From NCBI GenBank assembly GCA_937128055.1, contig CAKZMC010000065.1, forward strand, positions 1-37,413: a stretch of DNA of 37,413 bases, in the 5' to 3' direction. Positions 20,155-24,515 of this stretch are shown here, piece by piece. This DNA comes from an uncultured Actinomycetes bacterium. GTDB taxonomy: Bacteria > Actinomycetota > Geothermincolia > Geothermincolales > RBG-13-55-18. The translations under genes were made by a program, and so were the position numbers. Every line of letters begins with the position of its first letter. Position 1 is the first letter of the stretch. A model generated the notes under the pieces. It saw only the letters and a program-made list of their open reading frames with translations. It had not been told where the DNA came from and ran no database searches.

Positions 20155-20889
20155 TCACGCGTGCGCCGGCATCGTCAGCACGCCGCACACCTTGGTGGGT
20201 ACGAGGGCGGAGAGCTCCTCCGACCACCGCACTAAAAGCTCCCCCGGGTAGGGCTGTACCTCTCGGTAAGACGCGTCGAGGGTGTTCTCCGCGCGGAACT
20301 GCTGCAGGACCAGCGATGCGGCGCCTTCGATGATACGGGCCAGGGAGAGCAGGTCCGAGAGATCCACCAGCCCCGGCACCACGGTACAGCGGAACTCGTG
20401 CTCTATCCCGCTCTCCAGCACCAGGGCTACGGACTCCCGGATGCGGTTGACGTCCACCGGTCGCCTCGCCACCATAGAATATTTTTCCAGCGATGTCTTG
20501 AGGTCCATGGCCAGGAAATCCAGCAGGCCCGCCTCGAAGAGCCTTCGCAGCACATGCGGGCGGGACCCGTTGGTATCCAGCTTGACCGCGAAGCCGGCTT
20601 CGCGCGCCTGCGAACACAGGCGTGGAAGGTCATCATGCAGGGTGGGCTCCCCTCCCGTGACGGACAACCCGTCTATCCATCCTGAGCGCGAGCGAAGGAA
20701 GGCCTCGACATCCTCCCATTCCATCCTCCCGCCGTCTTCGCCGCCTCCCCCTGCCTCCACCAGCTCCGGGTTCTGGCAGTAGGGACAGCGGAAATTGCAC
20801 CCGCCCAGGAAAAGCACGGCACAGATCTTGCCGGGCCAGTCTATCATGCTCGTGGGCAGCAAGCCCCGCAGGTTACGAAAACACGACAT
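20155..20889 (-). CDS. nrdG: Anaerobic ribonucleoside-triphosphate reductase activating protein (radical SAM)
   Basis: LGGCNFRCPYCQNPEL (CxxxCxxC); adjacent to nrdD. Confidence 0.9.
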   Translation of the reverse strand: MSCFRNLRGLLPTSMIDWPGKICAVLFLGGCNFRCPYCQNPELVEAGGGGEDGGRMEWEDVEAFLRSRSGWIDGLSVTGGEPTLHDDLPRLCSQAREAGFAVKLDTNGSRPHVLRRLFEAGLLDFLAMDLKTSLEKYSMVARRPVDVNRIRESVALVLESGIEHEFRCTVVPGLVDLSDLLSLARIIEGAASLVLQQFRAENTLDASYREVQPYPGELLVRWSEELSALVPTKVCGVLTMPAHA

Positions 20890-20892
20890 CTC

Positions 20893-21138
20893 TCAGTTTA
20901 CCCACTCGGCGATCTCGCTTGTGGTGGGCACGGTGCAGCGCCAGGCATGCAGCTCCATGCCCTCCTCGTCGACCACCACGATGGAAGGCGTGCAGAGCAC
21001 GCTGTAAAAGGCGGCCTCCGCCAGGCCGTCCACCTCTTCCACATCGAAGATCTCGGTCTGCGGGAAGCGTCCGGCCACTTCCTTGGCCGCCGGGCATTTC
21101 TGGCAATCTCGCTTGATAAAGACCTTAAGGTACTGCAT
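20893..21138 (-). CDS. Thioredoxin/glutaredoxin-like protein
   Basis: FIKRDCQKCPAAKEV (CxxC) and CTPSIVVVDEEG cis-Pro loop; overlaps the nrdD stop by 14 nt. Confidence 0.82.
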   Translation of the reverse strand: MQYLKVFIKRDCQKCPAAKEVAGRFPQTEIFDVEEVDGLAEAAFYSVLCTPSIVVVDEEGMELHAWRCTVPTTSEIAEWVN

Positions 21139-23920
21139 GCCTCATACCTCCTTTCATGTCCGTACGCACGCGGTCCTTCAGCTCCCCCAGCTTTCCCCTG
21201 TTCCAGGTCGTTATCTTGGAAAAATATCCCACTATGCGGGTGATGCCGTACACGTTCTTAGAGCCGCAGTCGCAGCACCTCTCGTGCAGGCCCCTATTGG
21301 TGCGCCTGCAATCGTTGCACACCGTGAACTCCGGGGAAAAGGCGATCTGGGAGGACTGGGTCTGGCGGAAGGTCTTGATGACGAAGTTCTTGATCGACTC
21401 CGGGTCGGGTTCGTGCTCCCCCAGCCAGATATGGCAGATGGCACCCGCCTCTATGAGCGGGTGAAAGAGGCTCTGCTTCCTCACCCTCTCGACATAGTCG
21501 ATGTCCGCGTACACGTTGAGGTGCACGCTGTTGGTATAGTAGTACTCCCCGTTATGCAGGTTTCCCTTGAGCACCCTGGACGCCTGCGCCGGGTAATACT
21601 TCATGTCCAGCTTCGCCAGGCGGTAGCCGCTGGACTCCGCCGGGGATTCCTCCAGCACCAGGTTGATGCCGTATTCCTTGGAAAGGTCCTCGCAAGCCCG
21701 TTTCATGTGCGCCACCACCTTGAGCCCGAACTTCAGGGCCTGTGTGGATTCGTGCAACTGCTGCCCGGTATGGTACTGCACCATCTCGTTGAGGCCCAGT
21801 AGCCCCGACAGGTAGGTCAATCTGTCTAGGCGGAGGTAGGGATCGCCGTCCTTGGCGTCGCAGAGCACGGAGAGGGGGCCGTTTACGCCCAGTTCAAGGA
21901 GGCCGGCGATGAAGTCCCTCTTCTGTATGTGTGCCCTAGCCACCATCTGCATGGCCTTCTGAAGCTCGGCGAAGAGGACCTCGTCGGAGCCGTTGGCCTT
22001 GTAAGCTATGCGGGGCAGGTTGATGGTGATGTTCTGCAGGGCGGTGAAACGCATCTTCTCCGGGGTCCTCGTCTCCTGGAGGTCCTTTTCCTTCAGGCGG
22101 AGCTTGAGGCGGCAGCACTGGGACACGGTGACCTCGTCGCCGCGGTCGAAGACGAAATAGGTTATCCCCTGGCGCGACGCCACCTTGCAGGCCAGCGAGA
22201 GAAACTCCTCGTGCCCCTCGGTGCGGAAGAAATCCTCGCTTATGTGGAGTAGGGGCTTGGGAAAGACGAAGGTCTTGCCCATGGCATCTCCCTCCAGGTA
22301 CACCTCGAAAAGGGCCTTGAGGAAGGTCTGCGCCTCCTTCTCGTATTCGCCGTAGGTCTTACCCGTGTACACGCCGCCGGGACCGATGGCCGGGGTGTCC
22401 CGGAAATGGCGCGGTATGTTCCAGTACAAGTTGAAATCCGTGAAGACGACCTGGCTGCCCCTTGCCCCCGCCAGCTGGTTGAATTCGTAGATGAGCATCT
22501 GCGCCAGCTGCCTGACGCGTTCGTATTCCAGGCCTACCAGGTAGGGGGCGAAGAACATGTTCACCGCCTCCCAGCCGATGGCGCCGGCATAATGAGACTG
22601 CAGGGTGGAGGCCATCTTGACCATGTGCCCGATGAGCACTTCCGGATGCTTGGCGGGACGCGAGGTGCTGGTTATGTTGGGGAGCGAGATGCCGTACTTC
22701 TTGATGTAATCGAGGCTGTGGCCGCCGCAATTATGGGAATAGATGCCGTTGGCGATGAGGGTCCCGCTCTCCGTGGTCACGTCGTAGACGTAGACGTCCA
22801 GCACCTCCACCGGCTCCACCATGATCACCCTGGCCATGTTCGGCGTTCCGCCGGACGACGTCCGCGCCCTTTCGCGACCCTTCTTCTCCCGGCGCGCAGC
22901 AGCCCTCGAGGCGCTGGCGACCATCTCGCTCAAGCGCCGCCTGGCCACCAGGATGTCCCCGGCGTTGAAGCGCAGCCTCAAGGTGGTGGCGTTGGCCTCC
23001 AGGAGGTGGGTGGCGTTTATCTCCTCCAGCTTGCGCGCCTTGCCCTCGGGTATCTCCAGGGTCTCCACCTCCTCGCCGACCTGCACCAGGGATGCCGGCT
23101 TTACCTCCTCCGCCGTGATCACCGGGTGATCGTGGGTGACGACGCAATACCTGCCGTCGGAAGTGGCGATGAAGACCATCTGTTTCCCGAGGCGGTCCTT
23201 CTTGACCACCCTCTTTATGCCCGTCCATTCCCCCGCGTGGTCGAGGATCTCCATGTCCGAGGGGTATTTAACCCTCACCGTGGGCTCCGGCCTGCTCTCC
23301 CCCGGGAGGAGATGGTAAAGCTGCTCCATGGTGGTGGTAAAGACCACGGGGGAGCCCTTGACCCTCCAGTGGATGACCGTGTCACCGAGGTAGGAATAAG
23401 GCCGGATGATGAAGCCCAGGTCGTGCAGGTGTATATCACCCAGCATGTGGGCGCGGGCGATATCCTCGGAGAAGACCTTGCGCAAGGCGAATTCCTTGAG
23501 GATGGCCTCCGCCAGCGTGAGGTTGATGGACTCCGGGTTATGGGTGGTGTTGCTGTTCTCCTTGTTGGCGCTGGTGATGATCTGCTCCACGTCGTACATG
23601 GGAAGGCCCAGGTGAGAGTGTTTCTTGTGCATGGTCCCCAGGCCCCGCTCGAGAAGCTCCAGGTCGACCAGCTCGCGGATGATGGAGGTGGTGACCGTGT
23701 TCATCCTGCCCTGGACTATCCTCTCCTCCACGCGGTCGGCTATCTCCTGGGCCAGCTCCGGGCTGGCCTCGGTCTCCAGGATGAGCGAGTTCACTATCTT
23801 GCTCTTATCCCAGAGGTTGATCTCCTCCTTCGACGAGGTACTTACAAGGAGGGCGATGTCCGTAGAATCCTCGGCGGCCTCCTTGCGCTTGAGAACCCTA
23901 ATGCTGTTGGCAGCCGTCAC
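21125..23920 (-). CDS. nrdD: Anaerobic (class III) ribonucleoside-triphosphate reductase containing an in-frame intein
   Basis: N-terminal ATP-cone-like region; GDIHLHDLGFIIRPY[intein]CGGHSLDYIKKYG; C-terminal CNDC...CCDCG zinc site and RIVGYFSKITTWNRGKLGELKDRV glycyl-radical region. Confidence 0.94.
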   Translation of the reverse strand: MTAANSIRVLKRKEAAEDSTDIALLVSTSSKEEINLWDKSKIVNSLILETEASPELAQEIADRVEERIVQGRMNTVTTSIIRELVDLELLERGLGTMHKKHSHLGLPMYDVEQIITSANKENSNTTHNPESINLTLAEAILKEFALRKVFSEDIARAHMLGDIHLHDLGFIIRPYSYLGDTVIHWRVKGSPVVFTTTMEQLYHLLPGESRPEPTVRVKYPSDMEILDHAGEWTGIKRVVKKDRLGKQMVFIATSDGRYCVVTHDHPVITAEEVKPASLVQVGEEVETLEIPEGKARKLEEINATHLLEANATTLRLRFNAGDILVARRRLSEMVASASRAAARREKKGRERARTSSGGTPNMARVIMVEPVEVLDVYVYDVTTESGTLIANGIYSHNCGGHSLDYIKKYGISLPNITSTSRPAKHPEVLIGHMVKMASTLQSHYAGAIGWEAVNMFFAPYLVGLEYERVRQLAQMLIYEFNQLAGARGSQVVFTDFNLYWNIPRHFRDTPAIGPGGVYTGKTYGEYEKEAQTFLKALFEVYLEGDAMGKTFVFPKPLLHISEDFFRTEGHEEFLSLACKVASRQGITYFVFDRGDEVTVSQCCRLKLRLKEKDLQETRTPEKMRFTALQNITINLPRIAYKANGSDEVLFAELQKAMQMVARAHIQKRDFIAGLLELGVNGPLSVLCDAKDGDPYLRLDRLTYLSGLLGLNEMVQYHTGQQLHESTQALKFGLKVVAHMKRACEDLSKEYGINLVLEESPAESSGYRLAKLDMKYYPAQASRVLKGNLHNGEYYYTNSVHLNVYADIDYVERVRKQSLFHPLIEAGAICHIWLGEHEPDPESIKNFVIKTFRQTQSSQIAFSPEFTVCNDCRRTNRGLHERCCDCGSKNVYGITRIVGYFSKITTWNRGKLGELKDRVRTDMKGGMRHAVP
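22730..23395 (-). other. Intein (222 aa, Ser1...His-Asn/Cys+1) in NrdD, no recognisable homing endonuclease
   Basis: SYLGDTVI (block A-like), DGRYCVVTHDHPVIT (block B, TxxH), VEVLDVYVYDVTTESGTLIANGIYSHN|C (blocks F/G); residues S176-N397 of the ORF. Confidence 0.93.
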
Positions 23921-23953: not shown

Positions 23954-24430
23954 CTATGGCCTGCGGCTTTTTTCCACCTTTTTTTCCAGCAGCTGTCCCA
24001 GCTCGCTCTGGAATTCGCTGATATCCTTGAATTCCTTGTAAACCGAGGCGAAGCGCAGGTAAGCCACTTCGTCTATCTCCTTCAGCCTGCGCAACACGGC
24101 CATCCCTACAGCGCTCGACGCCACCTCCGCCTTCCCTTCCTCGCGCAGCTCCGCCTCTATCGCCGTCGCGAGGTCCTCTATCTCCTGGCTGGTAACCGGC
24201 CTCTTTTCAAAAGCCTTCCGCAACCCCGCGAGCAGCTTTTCCCTCTTGTACGGCTCCCTGTCACCGTTTCTCTTGATGATGGTCAGCGGCATCCTCTCGT
24301 ATCTCTCGAAAGTGGTGAACCTCTTTCCGCAGCCCTTGCAAGACCTTCTCCTTCTTATCGCCGCCCCGCTTTCCGCATTCCGCGAATCTATCACCTTGCT
24401 GTCCGGATAACCGCAAAAGGGGCATTTCAT
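23954..24430 (-). CDS. nrdR: Transcriptional repressor NrdR
   Basis: MKCPFCGYPDSKVIDSRNAESGAAIRRRRSCKGCGKRFTTFERYE; ATP-cone; start at MKCPFC. Confidence 0.97.
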   Translation of the reverse strand: MKCPFCGYPDSKVIDSRNAESGAAIRRRRSCKGCGKRFTTFERYERMPLTIIKRNGDREPYKREKLLAGLRKAFEKRPVTSQEIEDLATAIEAELREEGKAEVASSAVGMAVLRRLKEIDEVAYLRFASVYKEFKDISEFQSELGQLLEKKVEKSRRP

Positions 24431-24460
24431 ATAGCTCCCCTCCTCAGCCGGTACCTGCTT

Positions 24461-24515
24461 AATCAATATGTTGTATTGTAGACTAACATTAAAATACTAA
24501 ATATTGCGTTGTCAA
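24461..24515 (-). promoter_or_regulatory. nrdR-nrdD promoter with two NrdR-box-like sites
   Basis: - strand TTGACA (24510-24515), 16-bp spacer, TTTAAT (24488-24493). Boxes aatcaatatgttgtat (24461-24476) and atactaaatattgcgt (24494-24509) match acaCwAtATaTwGtgt at 12/16 and 13/16, centres 33 bp apart. Confidence 0.8.

Follow-up and report, generated by a model that had tools for sequence, protein, structure and literature searches.

Introduction

The class III ribonucleotide reductase (RNR) of Methanocaldococcus jannaschii reportedly carries two inteins, Mja RNR-1 and Mja RNR-2. The occurrence of inteins in NrdD, the class III (anaerobic) enzyme, is also on record from a Clostridium phage, the NrdD of which contains a putative intein (PMC3653736). 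Active-site motifs are the usual places of intein insertion (PMC5050341). Among such residues in NrdD, the cysteine that acts in the reductive half-reaction is Cys125 in T. maritima, Cys175 in E. coli and Cys79 in T4; the ribose O2' and O3' lie on either side of the hydroxyl group of T. maritima Tyr124 (PMC4493059). A group of inteins that start with Ser and proceed through an oxyester has an NX motif, in which Arg/Lys stands in front of a His located some 20 residues ahead of the block-B Thr. For inteins with Ser1 and either Ser+1 or Thr+1, PolB16 OarG being an example, this histidine is reported to be important (PMC10189870).

Here we analysed a window of 37,413 nucleotides, one contig (C65) of a 2.7-Mb, 99% complete genome assembly, the relatives of which are Candidatus Solincola and similar genomes in the class Geothermincolia of the Actinomycetota. 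Its nrdD gene contains an in-frame insert at the active site, which we compared with the described inteins and with the same site in related genomes.

Results and Discussion

A precisely bounded intein within the active site of NrdD

Translation of the window gives an NrdD precursor of 931 residues with a GTG start, in which residues S176-N397 form an insert of 222 residues (Table 1). The insert reads SYLGDTVIHW...GIYSHN and is followed by CGGHSLDYIKKYG...; its first and last codons are TCC (Ser) and AAT (Asn), and the +1 codon is TGC (Cys). In intein-free relatives, NrdD aligns over residues 1-175 and then directly from 398 to the end with zero residues in between, reading RPYCGGHSL, and the alignments read as uninterrupted between Y175 and C398 in 47 sampled genomes, among them one of the same order (G016). 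Because the empty site is contiguous in these relatives, the boundaries of the intein are exact and a chance match to intein motifs is excluded.

Table 1. Features of the nrdD locus, in positions of the window
Feature	Coordinates	Strand	Remarks
NrdD precursor, class III (anaerobic) ribonucleotide reductase, intein-interrupted	21125..23920	-	ATP-cone, SQCCRL, C-terminal Zn cysteines, glycyl-radical loop RIVGYFS
N-extein, NrdD residues 1-175, ending ...HDLGFIIRPY	23396..23920	-	Tyr175 = T. maritima Tyr124
Class 1 mini-intein, 222 aa, Ser1...His221-Asn222, without homing endonuclease	22730..23395	-	
N-terminal splicing half, intein residues 1-112	23060..23395	-	block A SYLGDT; block B T87-x-x-H90
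Lys65-Lys66 in the N-terminal splicing half			at or adjoining the NX histidine position
Degenerate basic linker, intein residues 113-186	22838..23059	-	under weak selection; modelled with low confidence
C-terminal splicing half, residues 187-222	22730..22837	-	block F VYDVTT (Asp205), block G GIYSHN
C-extein, NrdD residues 398-931 + stop	21125..22729	-	+1 Cys398 = T. maritima Cys125 / E. coli Cys175 / T4 Cys79
NrdR repressor, upstream of nrdD	23954..24466	-	
81-aa thioredoxin-like redoxin with CxxC, directly downstream of nrdD	20893..21138	-	Thioredoxin_3, just below cut-off
NrdG2-type radical SAM activase (glycyl-radical generator)	20155..20889	-	

The insert matches the NCBIfam model TIGR01443 (intein_Cterm) above its cut-off and the Pfam model Intein_splicing with E=2.9e-6, the latter at 27.6 bits and hence below the gathering threshold of 35.8. 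A profile built from 19 same-site homologues (the window intein and 18 others) matched the Pab PolII intein (2lcj) with E=2.8e-10 over profile positions 3-116. The predicted structure has the HINT fold of a class 1 intein, and its top matches in the PDB are inteins (best E=9.5e-7); the mean pLDDT of the model is 69.5, with poor values in the linker and in the last 10 residues, so that the C-terminus is weakly modelled. Taken together, sequence, profile and predicted fold confirm a genuine, precisely bounded intein, and thereby a further example of an element of known type.

According to the profile alignment of NrdD, the junction RPY/C corresponds to Tyr124-Cys125 of T. maritima NrdD and to the Cys79 region of T4 NrdD, and the intein thus parts the equivalents of two active-site residues. 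The host enzyme has the features of the NrdDh-type class III RNRs (PMC4493059), namely the PYC strand, SQCCRL corresponding to SCCRL of T. maritima, and RIVGYFS. Since the insert separates active-site residues, unspliced NrdD should be inactive.

An earlier note, made from the letters of the window, had described a Ser1 mini-intein at 22730-23395 directly before a conserved Cys, with a basic linker in its middle and neither a LAGLIDADG nor an HNH motif. Translation and the empty sites of relatives reproduce these coordinates and the length of 222 residues exactly; intein motifs, predicted fold and profile matches agree on the nature of the insert; the TCC codon gives Ser as the N-terminal splice nucleophile; the basic linker RREKKGRERARTSSGG is present; and profile scans of the 222 residues found no LAGLIDADG or HNH match. 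The comparison with NrdD alleles of related genomes, which the note had proposed, showed Tyr175 joined directly to Cys398 in the intein-free ones. Its statement that NrdD needs the +1 Cys holds through the alignment with the three reductive-half-reaction cysteines (PMC4493059), and that role in turn supports, by inference, its view that splicing would be required for active NrdD.

The gene order NrdR, NrdD, thioredoxin-like protein and NrdG2 activase is intact. The thioredoxin-like protein between nrdD and nrdG carries CQKC, and is a candidate reductant of the NrdDh-type NrdD. The genome encodes a second, intein-free RNR (PF02867, contig 60), by its sequence apparently a class II enzyme, and the idea that NrdD is essential as the sole RNR was therefore rejected.

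Splicing residues and relationship to known inteins

The complete set of class 1 residues is found in the window intein: S1, T87, H90, D205, H221, N222 and C+1. T87, H90, D205 and N222 are invariant in all 19 same-site homologues and H221 in 18 of them, G026 having Lys instead. In blocks A, B (T-x-x-H), F (Asp at F:4) and G (His-Asn), as well as in its +1 nucleophile and its insertion in an active-site motif, the window intein is like class 1 inteins generally (PMC4031507), from which it differs by the pairing of Ser1 with Cys+1, with Thr1 in same-site homologues. Asp205 at F:4 and Ser1 rule out a class 3 intein, with its Trp-Cys-Thr motif, Cys at F:4 and lack of a nucleophile at position 1, and Ser1 together with His221 rules out a class 2 intein of the KlbA type (Ala1, Ser as the penultimate residue).

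The archaeal PolII (PolC) inteins Pab PolII (2lcj) and Pho PolII (5bkh) are the best profile relatives with a solved structure and are among the best fold matches; they differ in being archaeal and in having another host protein and insertion site, and the match is due to the N-terminal subdomain. The inteins of the Clostridium phage and of M. jannaschii likewise reside in class III RNR.

A probable path from homing intein to vertically inherited mini-intein

All 15 sampled genomes of one family (f1, the Candidatus Solincola group of the Geothermincolia) carry the intein in a form of 214-223 residues, in every case with Ser at position 1 and Cys at +1. A similar mini-intein, split over two contigs, was found in another genome of the same order (G015). 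Longer same-site inteins of 380-424 residues occur in another family of the class (G026), in G277 and G099, both Candidatus Subteraquimicrobium (L055), in G295 (L059) and in G369 (L076), and these endonuclease-type homologues have Thr at position 1. LAGLIDADG matches were obtained in G026 and L055 and weakly in L059; the scan of L076 gave no match, and this intein looks decayed. The endonuclease of the same-site relatives lies where the window intein has its linker. With the endonuclease absent from the intein itself and present in same-site homologues, the window intein is not a homing intein. In G237, of the same genus as G099 and G277, the site is uninterrupted.

In the tree of exteins, f1 forms one clade (SH-aLRT 95), in which all inteins are of the mini form, with the endonuclease-bearing alleles scattered over three other clades. 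Pairwise dN/dS values are 0.03-0.15 for the exteins and, with both splicing halves combined, 0.07-0.18; for the linker they run from 0.08 to about 1.0, highest between genera, as rough values from an unreliable linker alignment. This pattern fits selection to maintain splicing. The distribution is what one would expect if a homing intein had lost its endonuclease, either ahead of f1 or at an early point within it, and had since been passed on vertically, with the window intein as its remnant. No relative was found in IMG/VR contigs, phage records or plasmids, and a viral or plasmid source or route of spread was rejected on that basis, though transfer may have occurred. An endonuclease-free intein has been kept across a whole family inside the active site of a radical enzyme, with its splicing residues intact.

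Proposed splicing reaction

Our preferred reading, to which we give a probability of about 90%, is that a class 1 mini-intein, descended from a same-site endonuclease-bearing intein and now vertically inherited, removes itself from the NrdD precursor. It builds on what is observed for the window intein, namely its boundaries, conserved residues, predicted fold, the empty sites, the endonuclease-bearing homologues and the selection pattern. Following class 1 chemistry, Ser1, assisted by Thr87 and His90, would attack the carbonyl of Tyr175 and form an oxyester; the thiol of Cys398 (+1), assisted by Asp205, would then receive the N-extein, now bound as a thioester; Asn222, assisted by His221, would cyclise and release the intein; and an S-to-N shift would link Tyr175 to Cys398 and complete the active site of NrdD. 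The junction peptide of the spliced enzyme would run through ...RPYCGGHSLDYIK. That splicing occurs, at what rate, and that it is unregulated are what we infer; constitutive splicing required for NrdD activity is most likely.

Hydroxyl nucleophiles at position 1 and the missing NX histidine

The transfer from Ser1 to Cys+1 would convert an oxyester into a thioester, which is uphill in energy compared with the usual order and counts against the proposed reaction, as do the missing NX histidine, the Pfam score below its gathering threshold and the weakly modelled C-terminus. The window intein has Ser1 as the first nucleophile in common with cysteine-less Ser1/Ser+1 (Thr+1) inteins like PolB16 OarG (PMC10189870) and PI-PkoII, but it has Cys+1, and Lys65-Lys66-Asp67 in place of the histidine of the NX motif. 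No His is present at residues 54-86, where K65-K66-D67 stands, and the 18 other aligned same-site homologues also have no histidine at the NX place, with KK or KR instead. Owing to a one-residue indel, the NX column falls on Lys66 or Asp67 in the window intein; all 19 aligned sequences have Lys65, and nearly all have Lys66. We hypothesise that a lysine might substitute for the missing NX histidine in the activation of Ser1.

Other NrdD inteins of related genomes do have a histidine at this place. At a second site (site b, GARG/S...HN/SQVVF), Ser1/Ser+1 inteins of 574-577 residues occur in L038, L039, L040, L036, L034, L035 and L033, in which AIRHEN aligns with LIRHDYSG of PI-PkoII, so that they fit the group of PolB16 OarG and PI-PkoII. 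The one member scanned (L040) has a LAGLIDADG match, and the site-b intein is absent from the genome of the window. A second NrdD paralogue in the Candidatus Subteraquimicrobium-like genome G099 (L116, contig 23) carries two inteins and the apparent start of a third, the insertion places being RPY/C (site a, as in the window), ARGGQ/T and the SQCC motif; its site-a intein (Ser1/Cys+1) has RH at the NX place (VLRHKSSKRM).

Thr1 is conserved in the endonuclease-type site-a inteins of L055, L059 and L076, from two distant actinobacterial families. The site-a intein of G026 (L033:4347-5618, minus strand) combines Thr1 with the penultimate Lys (SKN/C) and two LAGLIDADG-type matches. A review allows Thr1 in a figure legend, without discussion there as a natural case (PMC4031507), and our literature searches returned no paper on natural Thr1 inteins. 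As to whether Thr1 or Ser1 is ancestral, the intein tree, the branches of which are long, needs two changes. One site offers a natural series, from Thr1 with endonuclease through Ser1 without it to a paralogue with Ser1 and an NX-type histidine, and this series lets intein chemists ask how a hydroxyl nucleophile passes the chain to a thiol. We consider it speculative, and on balance unlikely, that their chemistry sets the site-a NrdD inteins of Actinomycetota apart as a variant of their own, with Ser1 or Thr1 and Cys+1 in the absence of an NX histidine and perhaps activated by the conserved Lys65/Lys66, and that the endonuclease-free form might have become fixed throughout the family because it usefully delays or controls the maturation of NrdD.

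Could splicing be regulated or lost?

A disulfide between Cys1 and Cys+1 is known from other inteins; it is impossible in the window intein because position 1 is Ser. The earlier note had suggested a redox-sensitive switch. In such a reading the intein would leave NrdD inactive until conditions become reducing, through oxidation of Cys398 or its disulfide with an intein cysteine. The +1 Cys and the oxygen sensitivity of NrdD agree with such control, and a redox-responsive DnaB intein has been described in Mycobacterium (PMC6195587). However, the sole cysteine of the window intein, Cys84, just before the block-B Thr, is missing in G003, G004 and G007, and the intein of G004 has zero cysteines, so that no conserved intein cysteine is there to pair with the junction cysteine and a disulfide switch as a conserved mechanism was rejected. 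Ser1 is unable to pair, and Cys+1 is invariant in the intein-free relatives too, where it serves catalysis and is thus dictated by the host. Retention of the mini-intein in the whole family would also be expected from vertical inheritance, as loss has to be precise, and the genome has its intein-free second RNR. Redox- or oxygen-controlled splicing is therefore improbable and the suggestion of a switch found no support; simple oxidation might possibly block Cys+1, though nothing here points to that or to an evolved switch.

It is more improbable still that the intein has degenerated into a non-splicing scar, leaving NrdD dead or working with the insert in place. The score below the Pfam gathering cut-off could indicate some weakening relative to the models, and the second RNR could render NrdD dispensable, but all splicing residues are conserved family-wide, exteins and splicing halves are alike under purifying selection, the NrdR-NrdD-redoxin-NrdG operon is intact, and an enzyme with an insert between two active-site residues should fail. 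A native NrdD domain, as fixation in all sampled family members might suggest, is refuted for practical purposes by its exact absence from the 47 related genomes including G016 of the same order, by intein motifs and fold, and by the same-site homologues with LAGLIDADG endonucleases.

Further intein-like sequences

Weak matches to the intein profile were also noticed in other proteins of Actinomycetota (L119, L120, L122 and L123), seemingly radical SAM proteins of the Rv2578c type, in which the inteins end in ...VSHN/C or ...HN/CFA.
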